From Sclerodactyla briareus (lineage: Eukaryota; Echinodermata; Holothuroidea; Dendrochirotida; Sclerodactylidae): DNA of 64,000 nucleotides. A program made the translations under genes and the position numbers. Every line of letters begins with the position of its first letter. Within the stretch, counting starts at the first letter, position 1. The notes beneath the pieces are model-generated. The model ran no database searches. It was not told the origin of the DNA and worked only from the letters and a program-made list of their open reading frames with translations. The stretch lies in NCBI GenBank assembly GCA_026419785.1, contig JAODTK010003588.1, positions 235,687-299,686 on the forward strand, in the 5' to 3' direction. Positions 1 to 64,000 of this stretch are shown one piece after another.

Positions 1-3
1 TCT

Positions 4-36
<33 letters not shown>

Positions 37-51
37 TTTCTTCTTTCTTTC
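1..51. repeat. CTTT microsatellite heading unit 1
   Basis: A run of CTTT with occasional CTT interruptions. It is followed by a segment (AGTATTGGTAATTCATATTC) that also follows the CTTT runs at 18506-18597 and 33777-33865. It therefore marks the junction between successive long tandem units. The left end of the tract lies outside the window. Confidence 0.95.
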
Positions 52-1334
52 AAGTATTGGTAATTCATATTCATCACATGTGAAAATTCTGAAGTGCCTT
101 CCGATTACCCTAACAGTTTTGATTTGCACTAATGTTTTGATTTTCACATGTCGACTTAACAGATGAAGTGACATTTATAGTTTCGTTGCTCTAGTATGTT
201 ACACGAGGGACAGTGCGTAACTTGGTAAGGAGAGTGTCATACGAATGAATAGATATCGTCAAATATTAAAACATAGGGTGTGAGTGTGGGTGAAAAAACG
301 ACAGGTGAACACAAGTGACATCGCACCTTCTATTGATAGGAACGCTTACGAAACTGCATAACCTATTGACGACTTCAGGGTAAACAACAGCATGGCAAAT
401 TAACATAATTTACTTTTTAGTTGTGATGATGAATAACAACAGTGACTGGATATGATAACCGAATGTGACCTCAACATTAACCTCTTTGTGAATTTAGAGA
501 TTAGTAAATGAAAATATTTATAGTTATGATCAAATAGCGTTTCAAGCACATGGGATTATGACTCTGCGTTTCAGCTCGTGACAGAACAATATCATATTAT
601 ATATATTGATATACCAGTTTCCTTCAATTCTCCAACTTATGGTACGTTTTTTTTTTCTTTCTAGAAATCAGAGAGAAACAGTGGTCACTATGCAATGTGT
701 GTATCTACAACGAACCATGACATCTTTTTTCGTGCCCGTGGTTACTGACAAAAGAGGCCATGACCACGCGGGACATTCGCTTGATTTGCAATACATGTCG
801 ATAGGTTTAACTAGCCCTCAGCAATAGTCACTGGCTTGACGTATCCTCAAACGCGTATTTAGCATAAGAAAATTGATGTACGCAGTCATAGCTAGCTGAG
901 GCACTGAGAAATATGGCGAAGGATAATAATTGAAGTAATAATTTGACGATTTCATTTCATTTCTCCATAACAACACTGTATTTTGACAGGACATCATCCT
1001 TGAAATTCATCTTCTTTTCAGAGATCTGATAATGAAAGTTGCGGTTTTTAATCTTTCACTTATTTAATATGATCATATTTCACGCTTGGCGCATGCTTAT
1101 TTCTTCCACGGCAAATATGACTGAGCTGAATGCGGACTTGTGATGGATCTAGTAGAATATGTTGAATTCAGGATTCCAAAATTCTAAATTCCTAGGCTCT
1201 GCTAACAATGCTATGGGTGGAGTTAGACGATCAATTTTATTAGCTGGCATGGCCACTTTAGACTTGTTCTCACGCTCATTCCTTTTTGAATGGCAATGAA
1301 TTCAACCGGTAAATTCAGAAAAATCTTTGTGTGT

Positions 1335-1712
1335 ATTTCAGTCCACATGAAAACCTTCCAAGCAGTGTGCGGAAGCTTCTAGGGAAGGTCATTAGCGTTC
1401 TCGGCTTCTTGATTAATAAATTCAGTTTCGTGATAAAATAGTTTTGTTCAGGGGCTTGTTTTTGGGAGCAGTTAGTGACCTTCGGCATATCCTGTACAAG
1501 CGTACAATTTGTATTTCGCGAAAAATAAGGTGCTAATGCGAACGTTCAAATTAGAATTACCAGAATAATTTACTGCCTGTATATTTGCGTATAAGAAAAA
1601 ATTGAAGTGTCTTGGCACTTCAACGGACTTGAGGAGATTCCGCGATGAAGTGAGTCGAGCGTTTCCGAACCGAAATCGCTCATGGCTTTGATGGCCTTCA
1701 GTTCGGACTAAG
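1335..1712 (+). mobile_element. CR1-like LINE fragment, ORF2 C-terminal part
   Basis: The plus-strand translation, read across broken frames, follows the order after the reverse transcriptase core of CR1/jockey-type LINEs: the pattern of a shared arginine-rich loop, LVRPHLEYAVQ-like, then LRRFRDEVIQVSKIAHGLDG-like. The same fragment is in all four units (19880-20250, 34665-35030, 53205-53545) and is cleanest in unit 3. It is truncated at both ends and inactive. It pairs at the nucleotide level with the opposite strand of the larger LINE at 10002-11330, so both belong to one family. Its presence in every unit puts it before unit amplification. Confidence 0.75.
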
Positions 1713-1834
1713 CCTACTACTAATTAAACTAAACTCAACTCATGGTTCGAGCATGGATCATTTTATTTTATCGCCATTTTCAAACTCTAGGGAATATGTA
1801 TAATACTGAGGGAAATTCAAACCTTTGATTTAAT

Positions 1835-2205
1835 TTTTTTAGTTAAGAAGGCTCAGGAAGGACAAACTCCTCATGAAAGACACTGAAGCCACAGTATCCC
1901 AGAAGAGAAGAATACCCTAGATGCCTAAGGAATTCTCCTACAATTCTTGAAAAATACTATTCACACACTTAGACAGAACAACATCATCAGGGAGGCTATT
2001 CAACTCATTACGCACTCTCTGCAAGAAGAAATATTTACGAATGTCCAACATACAGCGTTTGCGACAAGCTTGAAGCGATGACTCCTTATGGTAACATGGT
2101 AACATTGGGAAACTCAAAGGTATAGTGAAAACATAAAGGCCATCTAATCCATGAACAATCTTAGAAACCTGAATCAAATAATCTCGAAATCGTGTCAGCT
2201 CTATT
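1835..2205 (-). mobile_element. CR1-like LINE 3' end fragment
   Basis: The minus strand encodes IQVSKIVHGLDGLYVF, then an arginine-bearing stretch and RVRNELNSLPDDVVLSKCVN, the usual C-terminal end of CR1-type ORF2 (family pattern: F..RVVNEWNSLP..VV.A.SVN.FK). It lies tail to tail with the plus-strand LINE fragment upstream. It is present in copy A of units 1 and 3 and in the hybrid of unit 2, but absent from every B copy and from unit 4. It therefore inserted after the A/B split or only into the A lineage. Confidence 0.8.
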
Positions 2206-2214
2206 GGGTATTAT

Positions 2215-2295
2215 AACTTAATAACTGTTAACTGAACTTCATAACTGTTAACTGGCTCCATTTGGTATTACAACTTCAGAACTGTTAACTGGATT
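2215..2295. repeat. Short repeats of AACTGTTAACTG
   Basis: Three spaced occurrences of AACTGTTAACTG lie next to the 5' side of the minus-strand LINE fragment. The same cluster recurs in unit 2 at about 20735-20815, and unit 3 keeps one at about 35560-35572. The role is unknown; it may be part of the LINE insertion or its target-side filler. Confidence 0.6.
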
Positions 2296-3039
2296 TGGAA
2301 GCGTAATTGATACATTTCCTGATACTTGTTCTTGTTGGGGTAGTCCAATTCATCCATGCGGGGTATCTGAGGTCGTTCAATTCATTAGTGTTAACGTTGA
2401 GGTAGGAGAGATATATTTTTCGAAATAGATAACGCATAATCGTTCTACTGCTGCAATTATGGACAACCAATGACAGGCTGTATTTTATGGCGCTTCGGCT
2501 TAACTTCAAATACTCTGGGAGTGTTTCACCCCGCTTGAAGGGAGATTTACGAAATACGAGAGTACGATCCTGCACTTATCAGATTTTGTTTTCGTGACAA
2601 TACCTTCATCATAGTGCTACTACCATGGCAATACCTTCACGCAATGAATGCAGGCTGTTGTGTGCGGAGTTCCAAATCAACCGCTGCAGTAGGCCCATAA
2701 GCCTAGTGTAACTAAATACAGCATTAGCATGAAGAGTCCCAAGGCGATATTTGGGTTGATTGCATGGGAGACCGCCATTAATTTTCTGTCTGCTGTAAGT
2801 GGTTATTTGTTACATGCAACCGAGTGCTTTAGTCAATGTGTTGCTCGCGAGTGAAGACGGCTGTTTAATGAATCATTTCGATTCATGTCGGTAAAATAGA
2901 TATGAGATGGGAATGCGAATTAGTGTTCCTTATGAATCAGCTTTGTCGAGCAGATAAAAATCAAGTGAGATATGCCTGGCAACATGTAAGGTTAATCAAA
3001 AACCTAAATCCGATCAACACATCAGGGTCTAGGTGCAAC

Positions 3040-4515
3040 AGTGACAACTATGTTGTGTGTGTATGTTTGTGTGTGTAATCTACCAAAACCATAACATTCC
3101 TTTTGGTTGTTTGTTTCCGTGATTACTGATAGGAGACGCCACTGACCACGCGGACACTCACGGTGAACGCTTCATTTGCAATACATGTCAATAGGTTTAC
3201 CTCGCCCTCAGCAACAGTCAATTCGTCTTGAACATTAGCCTCAAACATTAGCCTCATCGGGCGACGAACGACCAGTAACTGCTAACTGAGACACAACGAA
3301 GTAGGGCGAAGGGATATAAAGTGTGACAATTTCATTTCATTAAATCCAATGACAGCACTGCATTTTGACAAACTTCAATCCTTGAAATTCATCATCCTCT
3401 CAGTGACCTGAGTTAATAATGGAGATGCGGTTTTTCATTCTTTACTCATCTAATTGATCCTATTTCACGCTTGGTCGGGAGGTATGTTCATTTGGGTGTT
3501 CGTCACGGCAAATGTATCTGAGCTGATTGAGTCACTTGTGTACAATGGTATATGATGGACTTTGAAGGATATGTTGACTTCAGGATTCCAAAATTCAGAA
3601 TTCTAAAATTTGTCGGCTCTGCCGACAATGCTATGGGTGGAGTCACAGGATCAATTTCATTATCCAGCATGGGCTCTTTGAACTCATCACCACGCATTGT
3701 TAGTCTTGGTATGCTAGGGAGGTATTTGAATATCGGCTGATTTAAACGTAAAGCCAGTTTTCGTGATGAAATTGCCATTTTTCAAACATTAGGGAATATG
3801 TAGAATACTGATGAAAATGTGATATTGGTACCTGTTTTGGAGCATATTTGGTACATTGCCCGATTCTTATATTTGCTGGGGTACAATGTATCAATACATG
3901 GTATTCGCTGATACCTTAATGTATTATTGTTAGAGCTGAGGTAGGGGAGTTGTTCCATATTTAAAAATAGATAGGGCACAATAGTTTCACTGCTGTCATT
4001 ACGGAGAGCCATAAGCCCAATCACAGGCTGTATCCAATGACGCTCCGGCCTAATTAGCTTCAAAAGAATCTGGGAGTGCTCCGCCCGGCTTGAAGGGAGA
4101 ATTGCGAACTACGAGAAAGGATGATCCTGCACTTTATCAGATTTTGTTTTCGTGACAATACCTTCATCATAGTGCTACTACCATAGTAATACCTTCACAT
4201 GCTGGCAATTGTGTGCGCGAAGTTCAAATTCAACCGCTGCAGTGAGCCCGTAAGCTTTTGAGTGTAACTAAATACGGCCATTAGCAGGAAAGTTCCCAGC
4301 GAATGTTAGTTTAGTTCAATGGGAAGGCCACGATTAATAGTTCGTCTCTGTAATGACTAGTTATTTGTAACAATGCAAACCAAGTGCTTTAGTCAATGTG
4401 CTGCTCGCGAGTAAAGATGGCCTGCCTTAATTAAATCATTTCGATTAGTGGCGGTGCATGATCTGCGATCAATGAAAATGCGGATTAGTGTTCCTTATAA
4501 ATCAGCTTTGTCGAG
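3040..4515. repeat. Nested duplication, copy B of unit 1
   Basis: Repeats copy A without the minus-strand LINE and with most of the plus-strand LINE deleted. B-specific markers include CATAGTAATACCTTCACATG, GCCCGTAAGCTTTTGAGTG and TGCGATCAATG, where A has CATGGCAATACC, GCCCATAAGCC and GAGATGGG. These markers allow hybrids to be recognised elsewhere. The open frames here (3503-3778 minus, 3552-3740 plus) overlap on opposite strands and show no family likeness. Confidence 0.8.
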
Positions 4516-7500
4516 TTCATAATGATTAATTCAAGTCCAAACATTATTCCCAAACAATGGAATAGCCTCAAGATACGTGTTCAATCTGCAGTTGTTGCAC
4601 CAAACGAGGGTAACTGATGTTGCGAACTGAAGACATCTTGGTACAAATGAGGGTTGATACTTGCCAAAACAGTAGACTGATGGCAAAGAGTACATCAACC
4701 TAGTGTAGACTATACAAGGTGCGTCGCTTCACAACCGACAGCCGTTTAGAATTTTGATTTTCTTAACTGGCTCTGGATATTACATGAATTTCAAATTGAT
4801 GGGAGTGGGTTGCGGTAATGTTCCCCACATTCGTTGGGAATGTTCTCCGTAACATATACAGACGCAGTGTTGTGATCTGTTTTATAAGAAAATGATAAGC
4901 AAAGAACAGACATGAAGCGAGACCGACTTGAAGAGCACTAAGACAGAGAACTCTTGTGTATGTGAGATTAGAAAACCTACGGTATGAGAAGTGGGGAAAT
5001 AGGAGTAAGGCAGTGAGGGGAAGTTTGAGAAACAGTGTGGATTGCAGGGATGCGAACGGCATAGTGGTGCATGGAAAAAATGAAATCCATGCCTCAGGGA
5101 GATTGTTTACACCACACACACACACATCGGCAGTGCCAGCATCCACACTCTTGTGGGAAGCTTCTGAGCCTATTCTATAACATAACTCAAAATCGTGTTT
5201 GTATTAAGGATTTATCATTCACTGCAGCATGTACAACATTAATGAGAACCCCTCATACCACAGTTTATTCAGTTGTATTCACTTATAGCTACCAAAATAT
5301 TCACAATATCGCTTTGTAGATTGGAATTCGTACGACATAGACAACCTTCTCGTCCGGCCCTAGACAGATGAATTACGAGTACTGACTCCTCTGTAATTGG
5401 TTCACCCCGATCAAGTAAAACATCACCCGTTTCCATTTAAGAAGGGCTGCATCGGTGACAGGAACGTTGTGAAATGAGGCACACTAAACCCGATTTCCAG
5501 GGAGAAGAAATTGACCAATCGAAACCAAACGTCGTTTCATCCAGGCCTGCTGTATACTACGTTTTTCTTTCTTCAGTGAAGTTATGGCGAGAAGCAAACC
5601 ATTTGTTCGATGTGAAGCCAAAATCGCGTGTCACACAAATACATGATGTACATCGAATATAGACAATGTGAAATGGGAAAATTTTTCCCGAACGAGACAG
5701 ATGGGTTCCGCTCGCTGAAGAAACAACCGGAGGAATATGTAGATCTGTTCTGTATACCGAGAATCGAAATTAGCTTACGTTTTTTCCGGAAATGCATTGT
5801 GGAAACCAAACAATGTATATCGAAATATTACGCAATATGTAGATAAACCTCCCTTAGCGGCTTCTGGAATTACCATACAATCACGGTCTTGTGTTTTCTT
5901 TGTTCACTAGAGGACTGATTAATGCCATCCGTCTACATCTTCACAAATAAGCTTCATCACTGACAAATACATTGAGGTTCACTCAATCCAAGAAGCGGAT
6001 TTGCAGACTGAGATTCAGCAGGTGACATTATAAGTTGTGTAATAGCAAATCTTCTGACGCCTGCCATCGACGAGTATAATTACATGGGTCAACCAATTTA
6101 TGTCGATACCCTGTACGCATATTTTGGGCCCTTGTTTTTGCTGTCCTACATGAAGACAAATTTTTTTATTGTATGGACTCCTACCTTGTACAATGAGAAA
6201 TACTTACCGTACTAGGCTATTAGTTGAACCTTTTGTAGGCCTATACTACAACATCCAACTATAGACTACCGTCATTCCCCCATCTTTCAAAACAGAATAA
6301 ATTATAATCCCGCGGATTTATTGGCCTTGCGGGAAAGGCGAACATCAAATGGATGGCCGGAAATTATTCGAAATCAGAATTGTGATAAATAGCCAATATA
6401 ACTCAAATTAGCTCATGTTATTCAACCATAGTGTAAAATAACAATAACTTGTATCAAACAAATTTAGCCGAGACACTTCACATCGTTGGATTGCATCACG
6501 TATAACTATATCCTATACCTTTTTACGGAGATTCACTTTACAACGAGCAGAGAGAAGACATAATGAACAGTAAAGCAAGATTGAAACCTTTCAGTATTGA
6601 AAATACAGCGGTGGACAACTCTCTTTTTCCGGACACACGCAGATAAATTACGATCACTGACTTCTCTTTGTATTCCTCGATCTTTTTCCTGTTATCGACT
6701 GATCTGGACACTCCGATTTTATCTCCGGAATAGCTGCATTCTGACACGTAACTAGGGATGCACTCGAGAGCTTTTAAAGGAAGGAATTCGGTGGGTGATA
6801 TCAGGAACCGCGTAACGTAATGGATATTGTCCCTTTGCGTAGTGCCAACCAGTGGTCCCTAACACTAAAGTTTGGCGAGCTCCATCTAACTGAGCAGTTG
6901 CTTTTCAAATCATTTGTTTTTTAATTGAGAATGGAAGCCCATTGCAACTAAAAATGAACGTTTCTATTCAGTGTTTTGATATAAAATACCACGGAATAAT
7001 TGTAATCGGTCACTCCCTCATTTTTTCGCAACGTAGACAAATCGTCGCAATTCCTCAGATCGTATGAGTAGGATTTTCCATTTTCTCGATATTGGACATT
7101 TGGTGTGACACCAATAGCTCAAAAAAAAAAATTCTCTTGTGATGGTGTAAATCCTCTTATTTCTGAGGACCATTTAATAGAAGCAGCGTTTGTTCAGATT
7201 ATCTGAGAGTCAAGGCTGGTCGAACAAACATGAAGAGGTATGTATGAGGATTATAGCACAACGTTTCAGAACATGGCCGTTATTTTAACAGTCATGAGTA
7301 TTCCTTTCGATTGCAACACGACAACTAGGCATTCATATAATCCCATTGTATGCACTTTTTCTCATGGCCTGGGGAATTTCGCTCGAATGTCGGTTTTGCA
7401 CTATGAATGTGAACACGAAATATTTCATTGTAACCGAATCAGCCATCTGCCACGCGGGGGAGAGCAGTATGTTTAGTTTAGGAAATTGCAATGTTTGTTT

Positions 7501-8526
7501 CCCGGCTAATCCGTCGACTTTTGACGTCGTAATGCCATATCAAATCCATCAGTCAGTCCTTTGGGTGGGGAATTATTTACTGGTCTTTAGTGTCGAATTT
7601 TTATGCCCTTCGCTCCTCTCGCTGTTTCAATATTGTAGTGAACGTGCTAAGCACAATATTCTATTGCAGCAACATGGAATATAACTACCCTCCTTTTTTA
7701 TACACCAGAATAGTTGCTATTGCACCCTTTGTTGAAACCATATGCGATGATCTCAGTCATTGCCTGCGGATGAAATGGCCATCCTTTGTGGCATCATCCT
7801 TGTCCAAGATAGTTGATATAGTCGCAAGCCGTTAGTGATGAATACATACATTTTCCATTGTAGCAGAAATTTAGGAGGGTTGAACTGTCTTTCTGTAATA
7901 TGTAAAACACTAGCAGTTATGGCCCTAAATTCATATTGAGAATACGTTTCCGATCGATAAGCCCCATTACGTTGATAACACTGCTAGAATGTTTTCAGGT
8001 CATAAAATCGAGTGAAGAGAAGAGAAACTTCTCACCAACACGTTCATTCACTCCAATTCATTCCAGCGCTCGCAGTCTGATCATGTTCTAGGGGCGCTCC
8101 GTAGGTCCCACGTGGTCGGCTGAGGCAGTGAGGGAACGAGACGAGATGGGAATAGGCTGCTGCCATATATGTATATTACGTACGCGTCAGAGTAGATCCC
8201 GCGAGTGTGCGTGCAAGCTGCCGCGGGATTCCACAGAAGCGGTTATCCCCACCTTCGAATGTGGTAACTAATAAACGGTTTGGCTTGACAAAATGCCATC
8301 ATAACTTGCTGAATGCGGGCGAGTCGTCGCACAATGATGTTCGAATGCTGTTCAAGAAGCGCTTCGGTAATATTTTCCTTTACCAATTAATCGCAATTAA
8401 CATTTAGCGCCGTTCAAAACGAATTAAAATCTCGTACTGCGTGGTATATAGTATAGATTACAGCCATGATGAGCAGACACATCTTATGTTATTTCTAAGA
8501 TACCACCCGATACGAACAGGAGCACA
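4516..8526. other. Unit 1 body without recognisable gene
   Basis: Single-copy part of the unit, AT-rich. 4905-7050 recurs in units 2 and 3 and in part in units 4 and 5. 7080-8520 recurs only in unit 2. Short open frames exist on both strands (for example 4763-5146 minus and 6538-6747 minus), but they are not kept open between units and carry no motif I recognise. A short CA run lies at 5111-5126. Confidence 0.7.
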
Positions 8527-8762
8527 CGCTGCAGGATAGGCGGGGGGTTAACCCGACATCTCGACCCGAGCCCATCTGCGAAGAGATGTCAGACGACGAG
8601 CCAGTGTTTTTTGAACAGCGGTTCCCTTCCCTGCTCCAGCCCACTTGTGCTGAGCGCCCAGTCTTTGGTATGACCCGACCGTGATTCGAACTCCAGTTCC
8701 TCGAGAGGTTGACACTCTACCAACTGTGCCAAACCCTTGGGGCCATGCTGCTGACAAAATTG
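8527..8762 (-). mobile_element. tRNA-derived SINE, unit 1
   Basis: On the minus strand a tRNA-like head carries an A box (TGGCACAGTTGG, plus-strand 8720-8731) and a B box (AGTTCGAATC, 8683-8692) about 28 bases apart, the spacing needed for internal RNA polymerase III promoters. A body of about 130 bases follows, containing GCGCTCAGCAC, and ends near a G/C run and CTGCAG. Orthologous copies lie at the same place in units 2 and 3, so it inserted before those units separated. I recognise the class but not the exact family name. Confidence 0.85.
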
Positions 8763-10001
8763 ATCAAATACCGGTAACTTGATCTTCTTTTTGAAAGGAC
8801 GTGGTGGATGGAACAGACATACGCGTTTCAGTTCTGAGTACACTGCAAACGAAGAGGTCAGTGTACTATACGGTGCATTCACTGCAATATCATGTGGTTC
8901 AAACGCATCTTTTGTGTTGAAAAATCATATTCTCTAATGTTCAAATGAACTGTTCCAGCCCTACTTTAACATTCTGCATATTATTCTAGTCGAAAAGAGA
9001 CAGCAAGTTATCGTGTGCCCATCCACGATTCAATACGTTCCTTGGTGAAACCTAACTTGCCGAACAGTCGAGAAAGAAATCGAAACAAAAATCAAATTAT
9101 ATATCCTCGACGCGTTCATAGAATTACATCGTTTGAATAAACATAGCAACTGAGAATATTGTGGAACGTAGGCCCCACGTTGGAAGTTTGAGAATACAAG
9201 CAATAGCCTATACACCCATTATAGTGCGTTAAAATAAAATATTCCGGAACCCAATAATGAATTTTACTGGGATTGATTAATAAGTGTTTCCATCACGCAA
9301 GGTCGTTTACTCACTTACTTTCTTACATTTTGTGAGTGCCTTGAAGATCCCGGAGGAAAGATAGCTAGAAACTATGCGGAGTAGGAGTTCACTAGGTAAA
9401 AAAATGCTTGGAATTGGAAATCCCGTGCCCGACATAGGATTCGTCAGTCTTCGTGCCGATACATGCATGAATGACCATGAGAAAGCAACAAACAATAATG
9501 TGAATTGCCCCTTGCAATACGTCAGATATCTGTAATTGAGTGAGAAAACAGGGCGATGAATCAGCGGATGTCATACCACGATTGCATTATGGAAAACATA
9601 GATCTTCTGAACTCTGAGCTTGTCAATGATAATGTTTTCGCTGATTTCCAGTGAGTTTCAAGTCGATGGCAGAACGAAAACACGCACAGCTTCCGAGCGT
9701 TGCAGGGTGATTTCTTTGATCCGCTTCGTCAGTTTTGCTCCATATTGAACCAGCAGCATTAGATGGTTCCAAGGGGGTTCATTTCTAATTCAACTGTTCA
9801 GGCGACACCATTTTCAGAATAGTAGTTCTCCCCACCCCCGCTGAAACATTTACCCATCGGTTGAGGAGGTGTTTGAGAACAAGTGTTAATATCATCGCAT
9901 AGGACTTTGCACTTAAGTTCCAGCGTCAAACCATGTCGACGAATTGAGACAGTACTATGAATACAGTAGGCATATAATCTTAAGCACTCGCAGATATATG
10001 T
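8763..10001. other. Unit 1 body without recognisable gene
   Basis: AT-rich sequence collinear with unit 2 26050-27700 and unit 3 44525-45720. No open frame is kept between copies, and I see no RNA gene or promoter. The right limit is the empty site used by the LINE that follows. Confidence 0.65.
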
Positions 10002-11330
10002 TTAGTTAGTTAGTTTATGAATAAGGGTCAGGAAGGAATTAATCCTCATAAATGACCCCGATTTGCCACAACATCCCAGAGAAAGAAAAAAGGAACAAGA
10101 ACTCGAACTAAATAACGCCGGGTTCCTGAAAATTAAAGCAAGATCTGTTCTTGAATGCATTCGCATTCTTAGAGCAAACATCATTTTCAGGAAGACAATT
10201 CCAATCAATTGATCACTCTCGGCGAGAAGAAAATTTACGAATGTCCATTCGGCAGCGGTGCCACGAGGCCTTGGACAGTGCCTTATTTTGCAGTAACATT
10301 GGAAAATTCAAAGAAAGTAGGGGAAGGGCAGGCCATCAGAGTCCTGGACAATTTTGAAAACCGGAATCAAGTCACCTCGAATTCTCCTCAGCTCCAGTGT
10401 TGTTAGACGAGAAGCATTCAATCTGTCCTGAAGATAAATTTTTCAGACATTGAATTCATTCTAGTTGCCCTCCGCTGAAAGTTCTCAATTACATGCTTGT
10501 CTTTTGCAAAGTAGGGATGCCACACTTGTACAGAATACTCTAGGTGCGGTCTTACCAGCTGCTTAACACAGCCTGACAACAATATCTTATTCAAGGAAAC
10601 TGAAGTGACGGCTAATCAGCCAAGAATCCAATTACCAATTCTAGCAGCTTCGGCACAATGCTTGGAAGGTTTCAAAGGAGAATCAAAACAACCCCAAGAT
10701 CTTTTTCTGAAATAACCTCCTGAATATTTCGGCCAATTTCAACCTGAAGGAAGCGTGCGATTGTGAAAACCAACATGCCTAGGCTTTGCACTGGTCGACA
10801 TTGAAAAACAGTTTGCCAGCGGAAGACCATTTGGAAATTATCATCGGATCCCTTTGAACAATTGCAGCATCATCATGCGAACCAACCTCCGATACAACTT
10901 GTGTAGTCTGCGAACTTCTTAACCTTGAATGAACAGAACCTTCAGGATCGTCAATATCCGCCAGAAGAAACAGGAGCGCCCCAAAGAACCGATCCCTGGG
11001 GAACACCATTAGTGACATTTGCCAAGAAGACGACCGCCCATTGATGACACTCGTTGTTCCCTATTATGGAGCCACTCACGAATCCACTTGTGGACATTCC
11101 CCTCAATACCAAGCTATCCAACTGAGCAAGAGACGCTTCATGAGGAACCTTGTCAAAAGCTTTCTGAAAGTCAAGGAAAATGATATCAACAGCATGCCCT
11201 GTTGTCAACAGAACAGGTAACATCTTCCATAAATTCCAAGGAATTAGGCAAACACGAACGATTCTTCCTAAACATGCTGCGAATCTCTAATCAGACTATG
11301 GTCATTGAAATAATCAACAGAGACCAAGGT
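10002..11330 (-). mobile_element. CR1-like LINE, reverse transcriptase part, unit 1
   Basis: A non-LTR retrotransposon, 5'-truncated, on the minus strand. From high to low coordinates it shows a DHSLIRDSQH-like start, RT motif A (VDIIFLDFQKAFDKVPHE, about 11187-11134), motif B (NGVPQGSVLWG, about 11010-10978) and a decayed FADYT in place of the catalytic FADDT (near 10905). The KWSSAGKLFFNVDQCKA stretch and the C-terminal region follow. The 3' end (left) carries a short (TTAG)n run, as expected of CR1-type elements without poly(A). Frames are broken, so it is inactive. Units 2 (about 27690) and 3 (about 45715) show the empty site, so it is private to unit 1. Confidence 0.85.
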
Positions 11331-11458
11331 GCATGAGGCTCAGTTGGAATGACCATCGTTATCAAATTTATTAGTGCACGGAATATCAAATCTTAAACCT
11401 GTTGCTCAGAATTTGGTGCGATATCTGTTCAGACAAGACATAGCGTTCGCTCGTAGTG

Positions 11459-50872: not shown

Positions 50873-50916
<44 letters not shown>

Positions 50917-51050: not shown

Positions 51051-51054
51051 AAAT

Positions 51055-51905: not shown

Positions 51906-51921
51906 CTTTCTCTTTTTCTTT
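51906..51921. repeat. Decayed CTTT tract between units 3 and 4
   Basis: Only TTTCTCTTTTTCTTTG-like sequence remains, at the expected junction between TAGATAGACC and GAGTATTGG. Its short, impure state fits an older or contracted tract. Confidence 0.75.
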
Positions 51922-53204
51922 GCGAGTATTGGTTAATTCATATTTAACACATGTGTACATTCTGAAGTACATCCAGTACCATCCAGCTTAAATTGCAATG
52001 TCTTCTTCAGTTTTGATATTCGCAAGTGAATTAACAGATGAAGTGACATTTATAGATCCGTTGCTCTAGTATTTTACATAAGAAGCAGTTACTGGGGTTA
52101 GGAGAGTGTTATACGAATGACTAGATATAGTCAAAATATTCAACATTGGTGTGAGTGTGGGGGCTAGGAGAGTGTTATACGAATGGATAGATGTAGTCAA
52201 ATATCCAAAAAATAGGTGTGTGGGGGGTAATAACGCCAGGTGAAATCAGGTACATATGCACAGGTCTAGCTTGGGGGACGCTTACGGCATAACCTATTTT
52301 GACGATTCAAGAACGCAACGGCCATGGATATTACAACCCAATCACTCATTATGTGTTGAAAAATAACAACCAATGACGGGAGTTGAGCTCAACCTTATCC
52401 TCCCTGGGAATTGAGCATGTAGAAAGGAAAGTATTTATATTCATGATCAACTGGTGTTCTTTTATTTCAAACACATGGGAGTATGAATCGATGTCCGGAG
52501 ATTGCGACAGAACCATCATTATATTCATTGAAAAATAAATATAGAAATCAAAGAGAAACAGTGGTCACTATGATGTGTGGTGTCGACACCAAACCATATA
52601 TTCTATTCGAGTTTGTGTCCGTGATTAGGATAGAAGAAGCCACTGACCACGCGGGACATTTGCTTGTGATCGCTTCGTTTCGTAAGACATGTCAATAGGT
52701 TCAACTAGACCCAGGCAATTCGTATTGCACGTAGCCTCAAACGTTAGCCTCATCGAATGATGAAACGCCAGTAACAGTGAGACAATAAAATAGGACAGGG
52801 ATAATCAGGTGTTGACAATTTCATTTCATTTAAACCAATAACAACACCTGCATTTGGCAACATCAATCCTTGAGAATGATAATCTTGTCAGAGACCGGAT
52901 ATGGAGGTGCGGATTAAATCTCACTTTATTTAATGATCCTTTCACACGATGGCGAGAAAGGTAATGTTCATCTTGCAAATATATCCTGAACTGAATTCGG
53001 ACTTGTGATGGATTGGGTAGGGATATGTTCAATTCAGGGAAGTCCAAAATTCGAAATTCCAAGTTCCTCCGCTCAGCTGACAAAACTATGGGTGGAGTCA
53101 AACGATCGATTGCGTTAGATGGCATGACACTAAAACTCAAGCTCATTTTTCCTTGAATGGTCAATGAATTCTTGCGTTAAATTCAGAAACACTTTGTGCC
53201 ATTT

Positions 53205-53545
53205 TCAGCTCAGATTGGAAATGTCCACGCGAACAAATGTGCCGAAGCTTAGGAAATAATTAGATCCTCGGCTTGATAAAAGATCTGTTCCGGGATACAA
53301 ATACGGTGGCAGGCTAATTGAGCAGTTTGTAGACCTCTCCTAAAGTATTTCGTTCACGCATATAATCCGTATTCGCGAAGGATAAGGTGCTAATTGGCAA
53401 AACGTTCAAAGGGAAATACCGAATAATTTACTGCTGTTCATTGCGTATGAGAATAAATTGAAACGTCTTGGCCTGTCTTCAACGGAGTTAAGGAGATTCA
53501 GGGTGGAGTGATTCCGGTTGTGATGGTTTTAATGGCCTTTAGCTC
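53205..53545 (+). mobile_element. CR1-like LINE fragment, unit 4
   Basis: Orthologue of 1335-1712, with TTCAACGGAGTTAAGGAGAT matching the LRRFR-coding stretch. More decayed than in the other units. Confidence 0.65.
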
Positions 53546-53605
53546 GACACGGCCTATTACTAATGAGGCTAAACTTAATTAATGTTTTCTCAAAACTCTA
53601 GCGAA

Positions 53606-54996
53606 CACTGGGCGGATACACGGTCTCTTGATTGGGAGGGCCAATCTGGCGTACAGTGATATGGGAGGGGTAAGGGAGGGGTTTACATTTGAAAAAAAAA
53701 AATCATACCTGAATGCCCTCAGATGCGATTGGTCCAACCAAAGTGTACGGAAGGAGTAATTTTCTTATAAAAAAATGTTTGCCTAGGTATAATCCACCAA
53801 CAGGATGACATGTGAGATCATTTTCGGCAACACTTTCAGTTCTCATTAGGTGTCAATTTTATTTTCCAAATAAAACTTGCAATATGGTTTCAAAATGTCG
53901 ATCTGCATACGTGATAAACCCAAAAAGCCAAAGGGCTTAGCGATTCCCTGACTGTCTTGATGAACCTTTGACCTGACCAATTTCAATAGTTCATGTACTC
54001 ATCATGGGAAAACCAAATACCAAGCGACACCAAACGCGCAGCATATATAGGCCTACAATATACATAATACAACAAGGAATAGCACAGCGACGATGTACGA
54101 CTTACAGATATCCACTATAGAGCCTGAAAATAAACTTCAGTCTCGACCCCACTAGTGGCAAGGTCAATGACCCGATCTTGTCTGGCAAAAGCATCTCATG
54201 TGCCTGAAGAAGAATTTTGGCTCGGACCTCAGTAATGGTTGAACGAAGTGTGGTCATCGTTCGGTCGACTTCGAGAAACGTCTTTTGGTTCAGCATTTGA
54301 CACAGGAGTGCGGCTAGGTGTCAATAAATGTGAACAGTTGGATAGGTCAATGGGCAGGACATATTCAGTGCCGCGATAGCAGTGATGGGGAGTGGTCGTG
54401 TCACACGTGTCACTCACTCGTCCACCTGGTTTGCCACAACAAGAACTCTGCCTTCAAGTTTCACGTCTCTGGTTTGGACAAAAATTTGAATTTGGTCCAA
54501 GCTATTCCAGTTCTCCTCATGTCGCTGTCTTCGGCCTTCCCGAGGGAGTAGACCGACAACATCATTGCGTGTCTTTGCTGGTCTGCCAAACCGGTACCTC
54601 AGATCCAGGCAATTGCATTTTAAATGGCTCTGTTGAATACGTGGATCGGTAGTAGGTTCAGGGGTGCCTTCGCTTGCCTGCATTATCCGAGAAAACATGA
54701 GACCTCGATTACACTTGGCACTCGTTGATAAAAGGGCGATACTCAGTCGAACAGGCGCAGGCCATAGCTACAGAAGTGCCGAGAAACCAGTATGTTTCCA
54801 TTGAAATCATGAAATTTAAAGGTTTTTTTAAAAGTTTAATTAATTAAACTTGGTGGAAACAAAACAAAACGACTGGTCTTTGCAATAATCTGTTTTGAGA
54901 TAAATAAACTGGCTACCGATACTTTTTCAGTAACTCTGTGAAAGTACGGAAGCAGATTTTTTTGGCCCACCTTGGGGGGGGGGGCATGGCCCCCGT
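53606..54996. mobile_element. hAT-like non-autonomous DNA element
   Basis: About 1.39 kb are inserted between CAAAACTCTAGCGA and TGTATAATACTGA, which are adjacent in units 1 and 2. The left end reads CACTGGGCGGATACACGG, close to the CAGTGGCGGAT termini of many hAT elements. The right side has a G10 run and GCATGGCCCCCG, a subterminal pattern often seen in the same group, but the terminal bases there are lost. Short frames (54414-54698 minus, 54392-54652 plus) show no transposase motif. Assignment is tentative. Confidence 0.5.
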
Positions 54997-55935
54997 TGTA
55001 TAATACTGAAGGAGAACGTAGGAATGTGATTCGTATTAAAATGTTAACTAGATTTCGTGATCCCGATCTTGTTTCGTGTTGGGGTAGTCCCAAACGCACA
55101 ATGAGTATTTGATGCCTATTGTTTATGCTTGAGAAATTATTCATATTCCGGAAATAGATGAAAGCATATTGGTTTACTGCTCAATTATAAATTTACAATC
55201 AAGGCTATTAGTAAAGACCGCCCCGGCTAACTTTAAAAACTTATGAAAATAAGATGAAAAAGGATGATCCAGCACTTATAAGATTCAAGTTTAGTGCCGG
55301 ACCTCAGCATAGTGCTACTGCCAGGACTTCCACGTGATAATGCAGGCATTTTGTTCGCGGAGTTCAAATTCAACCGCTGCAGTAAGTCCATAATCTTTTA
55401 ATGAAAAAATACATGAAGAGTCCCAAGGCGATATTTGGGTTGATTGCATGGGAGCCACGATTAATTTCTATCGCTGTAAGTGGCATTTGCTACAATGCAA
55501 GAGTGCTTAGTAAGGTGGTTCCCCGAGGGGATACGACGGCCTCAATTAAAATCATTCCGATTAGTGTAATAAAATAAAGCTTGGTGCGAGCTGGACAATA
55601 ATTTGTGCAATACCCTTCCTGACACATGTAAAGTTCGTAATAAACTCAAAATTCGAACAAAACGTCAGGAGTCAGGAGCAATTCGCACCATCGAACCAGA
55701 GTGTTTTCGGTATACCGACAGGGACCTAAATTAGAAGTTGAAGAGCTCATTGTTCCAAGAGTGACTGTAACCCCTAGTACAAACGCCTCATGGAAGTGAT
55801 CATGATTCCCAAACAGTGGAGATAGCCTTAAGATACGTGTCCAACCTGCAGTTGTTGACAGACCAAAAGGAGGTGTAACGGTTCTGCGCACTAAAGGACA
55901 TCTGCGAACAATTAAGCCTCCCGACAATTTTTAAC

Positions 55936-56655
55936 TTGATCATGAAAGGGGAGTAAACGGACGCTATGAACATCAGAGACAGGAATGCTTCAGTTGTTCA
56001 TCTGCAGTTAAAATGCCTCAGTTTCATATGATTGATAACATGCCTATATGGCGGCTCATCCTTAAACAGCCATATTAACGCCAATGAGTTGCAAACACCA
56101 AAATGAGGTGCATTACAGCATTCTTGATATGTGTCAGGGTGACTGATGGGGAAGGAAGCAATGTGATTGATAGGACGACTCCTCCAAAGGATTTTTGTGT
56201 ACCTCTCCTATAGCCCTAGAACTTTCTGGAATCACCCATCGACCTATAAGTTCATGAATAATAATTCAGTGACAGTTACGTATAGGCATCTTCAATTTGT
56301 TCCTCCCATTATAACTTTTTCAGACTGACACATTTGCAACTGGATGTTTCGTACTGTCCCTGCAGCCAGTGCTCTTAGGAACACGAGCTCCGAACATGGT
56401 TAGGCCAACACGTTCTGGGATGGATAACCATTTTGTACACGTTTAAGCTCATGAGGAATCTGGGGCACAAACTGGCTGGTTTGCGGGCACCAAAAACGCA
56501 CAAGTTTGTACGATTTATGTTCTTAATTTGAAGTAGACTCGGAGGCATTTCTCCGGAGGCCAGCCGAGACGAGGCCAGAACAAATAGAGGCCGACTCGAG
56601 TTGCCCTCAAACCCCCCCAACGGGGTTGTAGTCTTTTATGTGGGAATGGCACGCC
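55936..56655. other. Unmatched insertion or replacement in unit 4
   Basis: About 720 bp replace the counterpart of unit 1 4660-5080. The right edge (TATGTGGGAATGGCACGC, 56637-56654) recurs at 62996-63013 at the start of the fifth copy, so this border is shared by two copies. The minus frame 56375-56620 has no recognisable domain. Confidence 0.5.
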
Positions 56656-58494
56656 AAGACCTCAAGGCCTCAGGGGGATTGTTTACACCACCCATCAACG
56701 GTCCAGTATAGCCACATATTGTGGTAAGCTTCGTGAGCCTATCTAAAATAAATCAGGATTTAGCATTAACTACATGTACAAAATTCATGAGAACTCTGCA
56801 TATATTTTTTTGTTTTCGCTAGTACCAACACCTCACAATCGCTTTGTAGATTTGGACTTCCTACAGACAGAGACGACCTTCTTGTCGGGTCCATGAAAGA
56901 TTGAATTACGATTAATGACTGCTCTGTACACCCTTCTTCACCCCGATAAAGTAAATCATCCGTTTTCAGTAAAAGAAGAGCTGCCACCACTGACAGATAA
57001 ACGTCGTGAAATGAGGCGCACAAAACCCGATCTCCCAGGAAAAGGATGGACCAATAGGAACAGAACAAACGTCTGTATACTAAACGTTCGTTGTCGGCGA
57101 GTGGTAAAAAGTAGCACCGAGCAAATATTATGACGGGGTGCAAGCCATATGTTAGACGCAATCGCGATTCACAAAAATGCAGATATACAAGAATAAAGAC
57201 AACCTGAAATTGGAAAATATTAACTAAACAAGGAAGAAGAGAAATGTCTTGTGCTAGTGAAAAAAAAGGTATCGAAATACTACCCAATATATAGATAATC
57301 CCCCTTTGCGGTTTCCGGGAATACCTTACGACTATCAAGAGGGCTTTGTATTGTCTGTTGTTCACGAGGCCTGATTAGGCCATTCGTCTACAACCTTCGA
57401 TGAGCTTCATCACTGAACAAAAGGTTCAACCAATCCAAAAGCGAACTTGCAAGACCGAGATTCAGCAGGTGATAAAGTCAAATCGTCTAACTGTTTATCG
57501 AACGAGTAGAAATGACATGGTGTCGATATACTTTACTCATATTCGTTACTACATGAGGCCACATCTCCCGTATAGACTCCTACTTGTACAAGGAGAAAAC
57601 ACGACGGATATACCAGTTGAACCTTTTGGAGGGCCCTACTACAACATCCCACGATGACACCGTCATTTCCCCATCTTCAAACATATAAATTATAATCATA
57701 CTGATTTTGATTGGGCCTGCGATAAGGCCAACATCACATAATGGCGGGAAATTCTTCGAAAAATCAGATTTGTGTATAATAAGCCATTATAAATTAATTG
57801 GGAAATCAGCTACTACTATTTCAATTCAAATCAACCATAGTGGGAAAATTACAATAACTTACACCAAGCAGTTCATGCACGAGACCCCACATCGGTCAGC
57901 TTACATCATGTATTACTATCCTATTACTCTTCACGGAGATTCACTTTCCAACGAGCGGGATGGAAGAACATTAATGACATGAAGCAAGATGGAATAACAC
58001 AGCGGTAGAGCAACTCTATTTCTCTGACACACTTAGATAAATTACGATCCCACTGCTTTTTTCGTATATTTCCCACACGACCGTTGGATATTCCGATTTT
58101 ATCGTTCGGAATAGGCTGCATTTTGACACGATACTAGGGAACCTTAATAAGTTGTTTGAAGGAGGGGAATTCGCAAGGTTATAATTGGGTTAGGAACCGC
58201 GTAATGGATTTAGATTTTTAATATTGGGCCCTTCTGAGATTAAATCTAACAACTTAGAAGTTGCTTTGTAATTCATTTATTGAGAGAGGAAGCGAAGTTG
58301 AAACTGGAAATGACGTGTGTATCCAGTGTCCGAATATCATATACCACGGCTCTGATCATTTGGCCAACCCCTTCAGGGTAAATATAACAACTGTAACATG
58401 TAGGGCTAGAGCCTGGCCTCGAACAGAGAAAGCGAAGACTGGTCCTGCGACTAGGTAAAGCATGTGAAAACTCATGTTTTGGCGATATTCCAAT

Positions 58495-58680
58495 GGTGGG
58501 GGGTAATCACATGCAGACTGAATATGCCCTTCCCTGATCCAATCTCTTGTGCTGAGCGTCCAGGCGGGAAGCAACACGTAGCATGTTGAGGTCTCTGGTT
58601 TGATCGACGCGGATTCGAACCCTGGATCCCAGTATCCCATGGAGTGGTGAGGACGCTCTTAAAATAATTCCATAATGCAG
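58495..58680 (-). mobile_element. tRNA-derived SINE, unit 4
   Basis: On the minus strand it has a B box (GGGTTCGAATCC, plus-strand near 58611-58622), then a body with ACGCTCAGCAC and GGATCAGGGAAGGG, like the SINE of units 1-3. It sits at the site of the SINE remnant in unit 3 41480-41645, not at the site of 8527. The A box is degraded. Confidence 0.65.
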
Positions 58681-59592
58681 TGTTTGGAGTATGCTAATGA
58701 TATTGGCGTCAATTACTTGATTCATTTGGGTATTCTGGAAGAACTGACTAGCAATGAACTGAGGACATTTCTCTGTAATTTCTCTGACAGAAATTACATT
58801 TCCTACAAGCACAAAGCTTCAAATTTCCGCTTACCCGCTCAGTTTTGTTATCAAAGTGGTGGTTCATTTTTCTAAATTGGCCGTGGTGATAGCGCTATCG
58901 TAAATGGTTTTGATGAGATGAAGCCTCGACCTATTTGTGAACATGCACACGTCAACGGTGAGCTGGCATATTGTAATGAGCTTTGAACCCTCACCGTCTC
59001 TATAACACTGCTGTACGCTGAGCAGGGGAAGCGAATAGTAACTTAAGATTGAGTCGTTTCATAATCTCAGGAAATGCATTGAGTATTTATTTCCTCCGTA
59101 TCGGTACAGTTGCATTGGCGACCACCTAGCTACCTACGTTCTATATTGTTTATGACGGCTGTAAAGTCGAATGCTGAAGAATGATCCACAATGTGTATGT
59201 GTCTAAGGGTGTGTGCATGTTGGTGTATCTGCTTCGGGGTTTGCAAGTGAGAGTGTGTGTACGTTTGCGTGCATGCGGCCCTGAACTTGCTACACGTTAC
59301 TTGAACAGTATCAAAGCCGCCACATTTCAATGGTGACCTAATAGGTTTTTCCTGTTTTCATCACCACGGTTATAGGTTCCTGATTCCTTTTTGTGAAAAA
59401 CTTGGCAACGAGGATACGAGAGAACGGTGTACTATGAAGCCAACAGCCATATGGTATGGATAACTGTTCTTTCTTCATTTTGTTTCCGGATATGTTTTAC
59501 GTTCTGCATGTTGATTCCTCGATCTGATGATGCCGAGTCCCCTGCGGTTTGCAATGCTGCACCTGCACCGTTCTCTTATCTTTGTCATTCAG

Positions 59593-59653
59593 TATATAAG
59601 TGGCATCTCACCAACTGCCGACCTCCACCACATGCCTTTTCCCACTGAATAAA
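59593..59653 (+). promoter_or_regulatory. TATA-like box followed by AATAAA
   Basis: TATATAAG at 59593-59600 is followed 47 bases on by AATAAA at 59648-59653. This tight spacing is seen in LTRs, but no TG...CA ends or target duplication could be found. It may be chance in AT-rich DNA. A 73-codon plus frame overlaps (59427-59648) with no known motif. Confidence 0.2.
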
Positions 59654-60239
59654 GAAAAATGGCCATGTGGGTAACCCGGTGAGCTTCTTCTGTTTCTTTG
59701 GCTATGACGAGCTTTGCCACTTCATCCGTTCCGATGTAGCAAGCTTTCGCGCTTGAGATAATTTCAAATCGCTTTCATCGTCTTCGGCTCAGATTTTACA
59801 CAAGGTATTGCCTTGACCCAAGTTTGTTTATGTTCTCTTCCATTTTCCAACTCACCCACTGTGGCCACTCTTTCGAATCATCTGTCTCATCTTGGGGGGG
59901 GGGGGACAACATCCTGTCTTCCTGCCCTTTCCCATCACGCAGAAATTTGCCCCAGAAAAAACGCCACAGGAAGTTTCTGTTGCTGTTTGTTGGGACGAAC
60001 CGAAGTCATCGTTATAATTAACAGATAGAAGATAGATAGATAACTGTATCCAGAATTGGAAATGACATGCTTGGCATAAGATATATATGACATACGAAAT
60101 ATAAGACACTTGAAAACGAAAAGACCATATGTGTGAAATGCCTGTAAGATGTGCACTGTGTAAGATGCGTGTAATATTCGTGTAAAATGCTTGAAAAACT
60201 CATGATATTACAAATGTTTATAACGTGAAGGATAAATTA

Positions 60240-62300
60240 ATTTAGCAACCACAAGGTGAAAACCAAGGCAAGAATATTATCGAGTGTGGACAAATTAAAA
60301 ATCCTACTGCTCGCCCAACAACGGAGGAAGGATACCGATTGGTGTAAAAGCCCTCGGTGACTGCGTGAATAATGGAATTACCAATTTTCCATGGAAGGGT
60401 GATTGACATCCTTGAGAACCCGGGTGTTTCTTGCTCACCCTCGATTCTTACACTTCGTCGACCGTGGGCAAACTTTTCCAATAGCCGTACCAGAACGCCT
60501 CATTATGCCGTTTAGAACTGTGGTGGATGTTGTACTTGCATTACCAGCCACACTGCCCATACGGTAGACCCCCATCCAATACTAGAGTTATAAATATGAA
60601 TAGAATGTCTGAACTTAACTTTGAAGGTCGGCTTACGTATACATACATCGCGGTTGGAGGTTCTTGCAACATAATCAACATGGGCGTCCAGTTTTATCAT
60701 CAAATCAGTTTATCTCAAATATACACCCAGGTATTCGTACTCACTACTCCTATCGACCTATTTGTCCTAAAACACCGGCTCAGAGATAGTCCTATTCTTT
60801 CTTCTGTATCAATAACCATTCCGTTGTCTTACTAACATTTAACTGGAGGTAATTTCTGTCACATTCTGTTATAAAAATCATCATTTGTTCTATAGTCTGC
60901 ATCGTCCACCTATTTGATCAAGCTAATAAGAGCGGGTTGTCATCGGCATTTGCCCGAGGGCACATGGATCAGTGTAAACGTTTTTCATAGTTACAAAGAA
61001 AGGGGTGCAAGTGGGGTGCCCTGGGGAACTCCACTGTTACAATTCAAAACATCATATAAACATCACGACCAATGCGGACGAATTGGGACTGGTTAGTAAG
61101 ATATTCTAGTTCCCATCGAATCAAGGCAGAAGGGATAATGTCAGTTTAAAGCAAGGATCAGCTGAAATGTGGCCTGGATGGTATTAAAGCAGATGAAATA
61201 TCGAAGAAAACATAACACACGATTACTGTAGAGTCCTCAAGATGAGAATATAGGTTGTCCCGTATATAAATATAGCATCTGTGTTACGATCCTTCCGATA
61301 GGCAAACTGGAGATCAACATTAGAGGAAATGTCAACTTTCGAAGATAGATAGTTCAGAGAGATCAAGAGGGGAAAACGTTCACATGATTTCATCATACAA
61401 AACGTGATGAGGGCAAATGGGACGACGTCGTCATTGTAGTATAACTGATTTTTTGCGGTGACTGGGACCACAAGATTGTTTCCATATGTGAGGGATTGGC
61501 TGCGTTTCGAAAAAAAGTTGAAAATGTAAGTAAAATAGTTACGACACTTCCCACGCCTGCAGATTAGGGACACGAGGAGGGAAGTTTTGTCAGGGGCCAA
61601 CAACTTCGATGCTTTCAACCGTGGAAATTTCTCTACGCACTTCATCCTTGCGACGTCAAAAACGATGTTGTGGACTTTCCGAAATTGCCCTTAAAAGGAG
61701 TTGAATCATCGGAAAAATCCTGGTTGTCAAAGCGATTAAAATAAGTTCAGCTGATTGGCATATGTCGGAGAAATTTCTGGCACTGGACTTATTCTTGCGT
61801 TATGGTTAGGAACCGCTCATCAACCGCCTGCCCTCCCAAAAAATTTCATGTTATTTTTTTTTGTGAATTTCAACTTTTGTTGTAGGCTTCTTTTTGCTTA
61901 ATGAAAAGGTAGTCTTAATCTCCCTTTTTAATCATTTCAGTTGTTGTTTATTGCCTTCGTGGCACGACTTTGTTTCTTACGTATCAACTGTTTCACCCTC
62001 CCAGTTACCCAGGGTTGTTGTCGGGCGTGGTAACATTTGACCCGTCTAGTAGGAACGATGGGGCTCACAAAACGTGATGTAGGAACTGACAGTTGTTGTT
62101 AAATCGTGCTGTCTGTTGGGTGTGATAGAAACATATTCCCAATTGAAGTGTCAAAACAGTCTTGAAGCTGATCCCGGGCTTCATCCGACCATGCTTGGGT
62201 TAGATGCACTCGTGGCTTTTCACGTTGGATAATCGCTTTTAGACTTTGGTAGCGAGGAGCATAAAGTCATGGTCAGCGTCACGAGCTTAGTCAGGACGAT
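60240..62300 (-). mobile_element. L2/CR1-group LINE, linker, RT and C-terminal part
   Basis: A decayed non-LTR retrotransposon on the minus strand, distinct from the CR1-like family above. From high to low coordinates: a post-endonuclease linker (LTQAWSDEARDQLQDCFDTS, about 62210-62150) and a VEKFPRLKASK...APDK stretch (family: FS.LK..KA.GPD). The NDDVVPFALITFCMMKSCER stretch follows (family: NDYRPVALTS.VMK.FER), then LQFAYRKDRNTDAI (61314-61270; family LQFAYR.NR.TDDA), motif B NSGVPQGTPLAPLSL (about 61041-60997) and LQLNVSKTTEW (about 60860-60825). The block ends with YEYLGVYLR (about 60730). Frames break in several places, so it is inactive. Confidence 0.8.
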
Positions 62301-62989
62301 AGATGCCACGTAAGCGTCTTTGACGTTCGTTATAACAAAGGCCCAAAGCTGATTGATCACGAGTGAGGGCAGTTAACGTGTTGATATAGATGTGTTTCTG
62401 GGTGCCTTAGCGATCCGTGATTGGAATCCCGCTGACAAAGAAAAGCGCATCCGAGACAGACAGCTTCAAGCTCTGGAACAGCTTAATCGTCATTACTCCC
62501 GGCTGAGCAACGGATTTGTCTGGGATATAATCGTGCAGAAAAGTCATGCCCAGACTCTCAAGGGACCTTAGCGCCTCAAGTGTGTGTGTGAGGGGCTGGC
62601 ACATCCGAGGCCAAGGGCCGAGACCGAGCCAGTTGAACTACTGAAGCAAAGTTCAATTTCAACTGTGTAGAAATGTCACCCTAACATGCATATATGGAAT
62701 TAAACAAGCGCACTTTGTAATGTCCCCATAAGTAGACATGACTTACTAAGGATTGAGACTGAATACAAATGTTACATTGGTACAGAACCATATTGAAAAG
62801 AATCTAAATGGCACAACCATCAAATTGTTGATCTGAGATAGGAAAGGAGTTTATAACACTTCTCTCTCACCCAATAAGGAGGGCTGGTGAAAAAAAAAGA
62901 TTGGATAGACTATCTATATTGATTTATTTCGAATCTAATATACTCACACACGCAAAAAAAAAAAGCCCTCGGTCTCAACCTGAGTTGTA

Positions 62990-64000
62990 TTATTATATGT
63001 GGGAATGGCACGCAAAGGCAAATTATATCACGGGACCTGACATGAAGTACGCTAAGAAAGAGTGTACTTTGTTTACATGAGATTCGGAAAAAAGACGGTA
63101 AGAGAAATAGGGCACAGGAGGACGCTAGAACATTCTAGAAGCGAGGGGAAGTTTGAGAGACAGTGTGGGCTACAGGTATGCGAACGGTACAGCAGTGCAT
63201 GTGGACCAAAATTAAATTCTTGCCTCAGGGACATCAACAGGTCCAGCATTAGCACATATTGTGGTAAGCTTCGTTAGCCCCTATTCTAATAACATAACTC
63301 CAAATCATGTTTGCATCAAAGATTCAGCATTTAATACATTACTACTATACCTTCATGGAGAACGCCTCAGATTATACAGTTCATTCGCCTGTAGCTACAA
63401 CACATCACAATATCGCTGTCGATTGGACTCGTACCATGGACGGGAACCTACTTGTCCTGCCCATGAAAGAGGAATTACGTAACTGACTGTCTGTAACTTT
63501 GTTACCGCGGTCAAGTAAATCACCCGTTTTCATTCAAAGAAGAGCTGCAAAAAGACAGATAAGTCGTGAATGAAATGAGGCACACTAAACCCGATTTCCA
63601 GGGAGAAGGAATGGACCAATAGAAATCAGAGCAGGCGTTTTCATCCAGTATGTATGCATGTATATCAAGTTCTTTGTCCGCCGAAAGTTGTGAAAATAAA
63701 AGTGGCAAACACATTAGACGCGGTGCAAGCCTAGGTTCAGATGTAATCGCGCGATTCACAAAATGCATGACTCATGCGCGAAAGAAGACAACCTGCAATT
63801 GGGAAAATATTAAGTAAACGAGAAAGAAGAATTCCAGAAATGCAGTCTTGTCTAACAAAATACTATATTGAATACCACACCTAATATTATAGATAAACCC
63901 CCTTAACGGCTTCCGGGAAGTATAGTACGACAAGGGCTTGTGTGGTCTGCAGGTTGACGCTTAATCATACTGATACGCTCAAAGGTGTATGTGCATACCA
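62990..64000. repeat. Fifth copy of the unit, entered in mid-unit
   Basis: From 63030 it matches unit 1 from about 4905. It is closest to unit 4: compare 63251 CACATATTGTGGTAAGCTTC with 56712, and GCGATTCACAAAATGC near 63748 with 57165. The offset to unit 4 is about 6.55 kb, far less than a unit, so this is a separate duplication or a rearranged copy. It continues beyond the window. Confidence 0.75.

Follow-up and report, generated by a model that had tools for sequence, protein, structure and literature searches.

A gene-poor tandem array in Sclerodactyla briareus is probably an old segmental duplication with an internal CTTT microsatellite

Background

Very long units repeated head to tail, with a CTTT microsatellite recurring among them, fill most of a 64,000-nucleotide stretch of the genome of the holothurian Sclerodactyla briareus (assembly GCA_026419785.1, contig JAODTK010003588.1 or C2287, positions 235687-299686; hereafter the window), and the question that this locus raises is what kind of array it is and whether its units meet at the CTTT tracts. 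A preliminary description of the window had proposed a macrosatellite-like array of four or five gene-free units with CTTT at the joints. Our analysis indicates that the array very probably arose long ago as a tandem segmental duplication of a stretch poor in genes and littered with retroelements, generated by unequal exchange and followed by neutral decay, in which the CTTT tract was carried along as a passenger. The comparisons covered the window, whose right edge coincides with the end of the contig, the 220 kb to its left on the same contig, and the assembly of 319,486,128 bases in 3,171 contigs, in which searches for COX1 (PF00115) and TIM (PF00121) gave no hit; negative positions lie upstream of the window.

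Structure of the array

Comparing the window with itself by BLAST revealed colinear homology on the plus strand, offset mostly by 15-18.5 kb or by multiples of that distance (for example, 1-2957 against 18550-21485, 16905-19254 against 32125-34453, and 36-1747 against 51906-53587). When matches were required to be 300 bases or longer and offset by 10 kb or more, array homology covered 52,238 of the 64,000 window bases, and no match to the window at E 1e-8 came from three shuffles of it under a first-order Markov model, in agreement with the earlier proposal of a head-to-tail array with a very long unit. The array begins near contig position 224388 (window -11298), about 11.3 kb upstream of the window, and to the left of this border the matches to the unit were dispersed or simple repeats only. 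On the right side, homology of the last copy stops at 58971, and from 58972 to 62983 the homology to copies A and C was not above that of shuffles. Four copies (A to D, Table 1) lie between these borders, the first beginning upstream of the window, and the fifth that had been thought possible is present only as a fragment near the contig end.

The sequence at the left border recurs at the start of each of the other copies, and in all six pairs the match at these common starts greatly exceeded the best of 20 shuffles. To the left of the starts, shared sequence was found in the B-C pair only, the other five of the six pairs being below the shuffle maximum. At the right ends, A and B align to the end, as do C and D, and in the last 300 bases only these two pairs were clear of shuffles. 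The copies also carry private insertions, namely a retroelement piece in B (10001-11273), about 880 bases at 23708-24587, and different sequence at 41911-44283. The spacer that we call J is 0.93 identical between the A/B and B/C joints; no homology to it exceeding that of shuffles was found on the left of A or D, on the right of C or D, or within the C/D joint.

For the genome-wide search we used two unit queries of 5.6-5.7 kb, for which 40 of 182 and 40 of 237 candidates were scored. Among the candidates scored, the contig of the array was the only one with long matches to the unit, the matches elsewhere being short repeats. The unit stretches with such short matches lie at approximately 18000-18100 and at 8078-8185, 8539-8740, 13782-13976, 15246-15692, and 16343-16474.

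Position of the CTTT tracts

A joint sequence consisting of a unit end, a CTTT run, and a unit start had been placed at 1, 18506, 33777, and 51906. The run does recur at one phase of the repeat with similar flanks at all four sites, but the site at 51906 is a short remnant that was not listed by the tandem-repeat finder, and the CTTT sites coincide neither with the left border of the array nor with the starts or ends of its copies. The distance from the copy start to the CTTT site is 11.3 kb in A, 10.0 kb in B, 8.0 kb in C, and 7.6 kb in D, and the distance to the copy end is 7.3, 5.2, 8.1, and 7.1 kb, respectively. Since it lies 7.6-11.3 kb inside every copy, the CTTT tract is an internal feature and not a joint. 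A microsatellite that occurs once per period mimics a joint when the frame of the array is set by eye, and we caution that joints need to be defined from array borders and steps in identity.

Perfect runs of six CTTT repeats were rare in the assembly, with 79 overlapping matches that fall, when grouped by eye, into 16 places distributed over 14 contigs, three of the places being in the array; the control with the reversed tract is the same repeat and hence uninformative. By our own grouping, 13 places were on the plus strand and three on the minus strand, though the orientation of contigs should be arbitrary. This imbalance may be due to chance, and three of the 13 plus-strand places are the array copies. 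Around one of the 13 places outside the array (on contig C2800, about 10 kb on each side) we found 32 self-matches, of which the eight longest had offsets of a few hundred bases and included no long tandem copy.

Divergence among the copies

Ten pairs of units (U0-U4) were compared with local BLAST chains, and nine of these aligned, the U0-U4 pair giving no alignment. U1-U2 had an identity of 0.913 over aligned bases and a Kimura two-parameter (K2P) distance of 0.093; in the eight other aligned pairs, identity was 0.792-0.862 (0.79-0.81 where U4 was involved) and the K2P distance 0.15-0.24. Transition/transversion ratios among the copies were low (0.69-1.05), perhaps partly as a result of alignment noise. 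An extreme rate of insertions and deletions among the copies was considered and dropped, since the gap count depends on scoring, with approximately 41-74 gaps per kb in the BLAST chains versus 0.09-0.14 small gaps per substitution in a MAFFT alignment with a stiffer gap penalty. Parts of D, along with some stretches elsewhere, are wrongly paired in the global MAFFT alignment, where identity is locally as low as 0.37-0.6, and its figures of 0.66-0.67 for D are too low.

In pairwise alignments, A and B were 0.89-0.96 identical from -1150 to about 6850 where aligned (0.88 in the last bin) with no step at the CTTT tract, and 0.68, 0.85, and 0.87 identical in the three bins to the left of -1150. 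Identity between B and C was 0.86-0.94 at 13250-16250 (bins of few bases left out), 0.75-0.82 at 16250-17250, 0.88-0.93 at 17250-18999, and 0.77-0.93, mostly 0.81-0.89, beyond 18999. A step in A-B identity to about 0.93 near -1150 and the B-C drop near 16250 thus place a border of the last duplication, the clearest one, 1.3-2.2 kb to the left of the CTTT tract.

For copies A and C, identity was 0.89-0.93 over the 1 kb that lies left of the tract; to the right it was 0.80-0.94 and mostly 0.82-0.90. In a four-way alignment around the CTTT tract, the three possible site groupings were similarly frequent from -1300 to 100, and sites grouping A with B dominated from approximately +1100 (26:2:2 in one instance), except at 1300-1700 and past 2500. 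This alignment is more uneven (A-B identity of 0.73-0.97 to the right of -1300, the first two bins omitted) and was used for site patterns only, the pairwise alignments being preferred for identity. The relatedness of copy C to A and B falls about 0-0.7 kb to the right of the tract. An exchange may have ended there, no more than about 0.7 kb from the tract; this change is one of several along the array.

Coding and functional signal

The earlier view of a unit without a gene was upheld within the limits of the tRNA, Rfam, codon, and Pfam tests. No tRNA was found in the window, and nothing reached the Rfam gathering score either in the window or in 14 of the 22 upstream ten-kilobase stretches. 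A codon signal between copies was absent, the strongest of 449 block-and-frame tests (3.3e-3, a product of two p-values) being unremarkable for that number, and exons conserved between copies were dropped as a candidate for lack of signal in these tests.

The window holds 57 open frames of at least 90 amino acids versus a Markov expectation of 36.5 (standard deviation 4.9), and elsewhere on the contig three stretches of 64 kb hold 75, 77, and 90 versus 53, 45, and 44 expected, an excess as large or larger. The Pfam scan covered 48 of the 57 frames, the remaining nine being mostly simple-repeat frames, with shorter or broken pieces outside the scan. In the 48 frames, one match was better than E 0.02, a degenerate RVT_1 (E 1.2e-4, 22.3 bits versus a curated 29.6); the others listed were at E 0.028 or worse.

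Conservation was also compared between independent pairs of copies, in sets of 95, 50, and 22 windows. No positive correlation was seen for AB versus CD, with rho of -0.24, -0.23, and -0.11 (-0.09, -0.16, and -0.03 without the worst-aligned windows), and it was weak for AC-BD (0.14, 0.15, 0.06) and for BC-AD (0.09, 0.07, -0.21). The global MAFFT alignment contained no run of 18 columns identical across the four copies. The array thus appears to be neutral, while it may hold functional elements that are weak or short.

Origin of the array

The copies stand in tandem order, share common starts, have diverged, carry private insertions, and bear no detectable coding constraint. We infer unequal exchange, an order of events, and neutrality. 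A founding segment of approximately 15-18 kb, already containing the CTTT microsatellite, would have been copied in head-to-tail order, with unequal exchange as the most likely mechanism, and the tract would have been carried along. Copy D would have split first from the ancestor of A to C, and the split among A to C would have come next. The latest duplication would have involved a stretch of about 17 kb, from approximately -1300 to 16250 versus approximately 17200 to 31700, after which the copies would have decayed by substitutions, small insertions and deletions, and private insertions.

A tentative lead to the substrate of the exchange is a short dispersed repeat that is found at every copy start (25840-26060, 44320-44536, and -11134 to -10985 in addition to the one in B) and that may have a weak relative near the end of D (a same-strand match at 58512-58732). 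In comparisons of starts with ends, three of 16 on the same strand and none of 16 on the opposite strand were at least 15% over the best of 100 shuffles. The three are those of the starts of A, B, and C with 58387-58732, and BLAST returned for this link matches of 37-38 bases only (E 2e-4 to 5e-4).

Several observations weigh against so simple a history. The kinship of the copies varies along the array, and because spacer J occupies the A/B and B/C joints while the C/D joint holds different sequence, a simple succession of equal copies does not describe the history. The ends are less sharply common than the starts, with the mixed pairs (A or B with C or D) stopping about 190-360 bases short of the C or D end. 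The common start includes the dispersed repeat (approximately 8539-8740), yet the copy homology extends well past it; the link of this repeat to the end of D is weak, and the C-D alignment runs on past it, so that no clean exchange between repeats is seen. The fragment at 62984-63949 shows that the array may have been larger. Finally, the conservation test is a weak one because it was built on an alignment in which parts of D are mispaired.

Another explanation is that the CTTT tracts are the recombination points that join the units, so that the array grows and shrinks there. The tract does occur at the same phase in three copies with a remnant in the fourth, the distance of copy C from A and B does increase from a point about 0-0.7 kb right of the tract, and three of only 16 places with perfect runs in the assembly are in the array. 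The left border and the copy starts, however, lie 7.6-11.3 kb away, the A-B pairwise identity continues through the tract without a step, 1.3-2.2 kb separate the tract from the border of the last duplication, and the C2800 place has no long tandem copy among its eight longest self-matches. We therefore regard this explanation as very improbable. The suggestion that the tract is fragile or prone to recombination is for the most part not borne out, though in view of the change in the kinship of C the tract may have had a part in one exchange, and mere inheritance, which had been offered beside it, is the better option. In a broader version, which seems to us very improbable, the locus would be a lasting duplication hotspot at which exchange among the copies was driven repeatedly by a recombination- or replication-prone feature of the founding segment, whether the CTTT tract, a different site no more than about 2 kb from it, or the dispersed repeat of the copy starts.

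That the unit might be a cluster of coding or functional non-coding genes, with exons too short or too fast-evolving to detect, finds some encouragement in the excess of open frames (57 versus 36.5) and in the nine of 57 frames outside the Pfam scan. Three other stretches of the same contig have a comparable or larger excess, though, the single match in the 48 frames scanned is to a degenerate reverse transcriptase, and neither a codon signal, a conserved island, nor an Rfam or tRNA match was found in the tests described above, which makes such a cluster highly unlikely. An assembly artefact, with repeated or haplotypic sequence misjoined at the end of a contig, would fit the exact coincidence of the window edge with the contig end, but the divergence of the copies (K2P 0.09-0.24, unequal between pairs) and their private insertions speak against it, the window contains no N, and more than two alleles would be required; we consider it very improbable. 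In the non-coding eukaryote DNA of this locus, the course of duplication, exchange, and decay can still be read.

Insertions and repeats

The features of the window are collected in Table 1. Within the unit there is a smaller, nested duplication (696-1275 / 3070-3695 and 2283-2964 / 3826-4529) with counterparts in other copies. The insertion at the B/C joint has a 78-base direct repeat (93.6%) near both of its ends, at 23772-23849 and 24504-24581, and the first of these is followed by GTGAGT, which resembles a splice donor. At 49303-49446, a 70-base unit is repeated 2.1 times at 97% and is apparently younger than its surroundings. Upstream of the window, long G-rich runs at contig positions 222305-222948 and 228835-229338 give glycine tracts in open frames.

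Table 1. Features of the array, in window positions.
Feature	Position	Strand	Remarks
Copy A, right part	1-7256	+	copy starts at -11298 (contig 224388)
CTTT tract, copy A	3-51	+	true start about -33, upstream of window
Spacer J, A/B joint	7257-8516	+	
Copy B	8517-23707	+	15.2 kb; from self-homology and common start/end
Short dispersed SINE-like (short interspersed nuclear element) repeat, copy B start	8539-8740		counterparts at starts of A, C, D and in many genome places
LINE-like (long interspersed nuclear element) retroelement insertion, copy B	10001-11273	-	left out of alignments with A, C, and D
Degenerate RVT_1 piece, copy B insertion	10954-11286	-	Pfam
CTTT tract, copy B	18506-18597	+	tandem-repeat finder
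Insertion, B/C joint	23708-24587	+	about 880 bases; not at A/B joint; 78-base direct repeat inside
Spacer J, B/C joint	24588-25813	+	
Copy C	25814-41910	+	16.1 kb; from self-homology and common start/end
CTTT tract, copy C	33776-33865	+	tandem-repeat finder
C/D joint	41911-44283	+	begins with retroelement piece 41916-43124
Copy D	44284-58971	+	14.7 kb, most diverged; from self-homology and common start/end
CTTT remnant, copy D	51906-51921 (end approximate)	+	broken short run CTTTCTCTTTTTCTTT
Fragment of further copy	62984-63949	+	near contig end; matches 4869-5709 and 56693-57357

Comparison with known systems

A large DNA transposon, of which Polinton/Maverick is an example, was considered and rejected, there being no dispersed long copies among the candidates scored and no polymerase, integrase, or transposase match in 48 of the 57 frames. 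Among tandem arrays, the human gene-free megasatellites have units with interspersed transposable elements and an expansion attributed to unequal crossing over, and the rows that describe them have units of 1.5-6 kb with identities of >89% to >99% where given (PMC2588610). The array described here resembles them, as far as that account goes, in its long gene-free units with transposon debris and its probable unequal exchange, and differs from them in its unit of 15-18 kb, its four copies, and the 14-21% difference in aligned bases between most pairs. Because the same source lists an array with a 12 kb unit on chromosome 8 and a row of 2 x 21.3 kb (PMC2588610), unit length alone is not new.

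Like the D4Z4 and DXZ4 macrosatellites, our array is arranged head to tail with a unit longer than that of a classical satellite. D4Z4, however, is described as having a 3.3 kb unit with the gene DUX4 in each and as undergoing loss of copy number, whereas the array here has few copies, no gene found, and no homogenisation. Macrosatellites are recognised by many copies that are kept alike, that is, homogenised, and by a number of copies that differs from one individual to another. The array has the head-to-tail units of more than about 1-2 kb, but its copies number four and a fragment in the assembly, at K2P distances of 0.09-0.24, with private insertions and no array-wide homogenisation; the term macrosatellite-like was apt for the tandem order and the very long gene-free unit, and overstated for the rest.

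Tandem segmental duplications are colinear genomic copies at one locus, and here colinear copies of at least 1 kb are found at one locus. The array is like them in consisting of ordinary DNA with repeats and a microsatellite in matching places. By the usual convention of 90% identity for segmental duplications, U1-U2 (0.913) passes and the eight other aligned pairs (0.79-0.86) fall below. On account of its low copy number and the lack of homogenisation, we class the array among old tandem segmental duplications rather than among macrosatellites.

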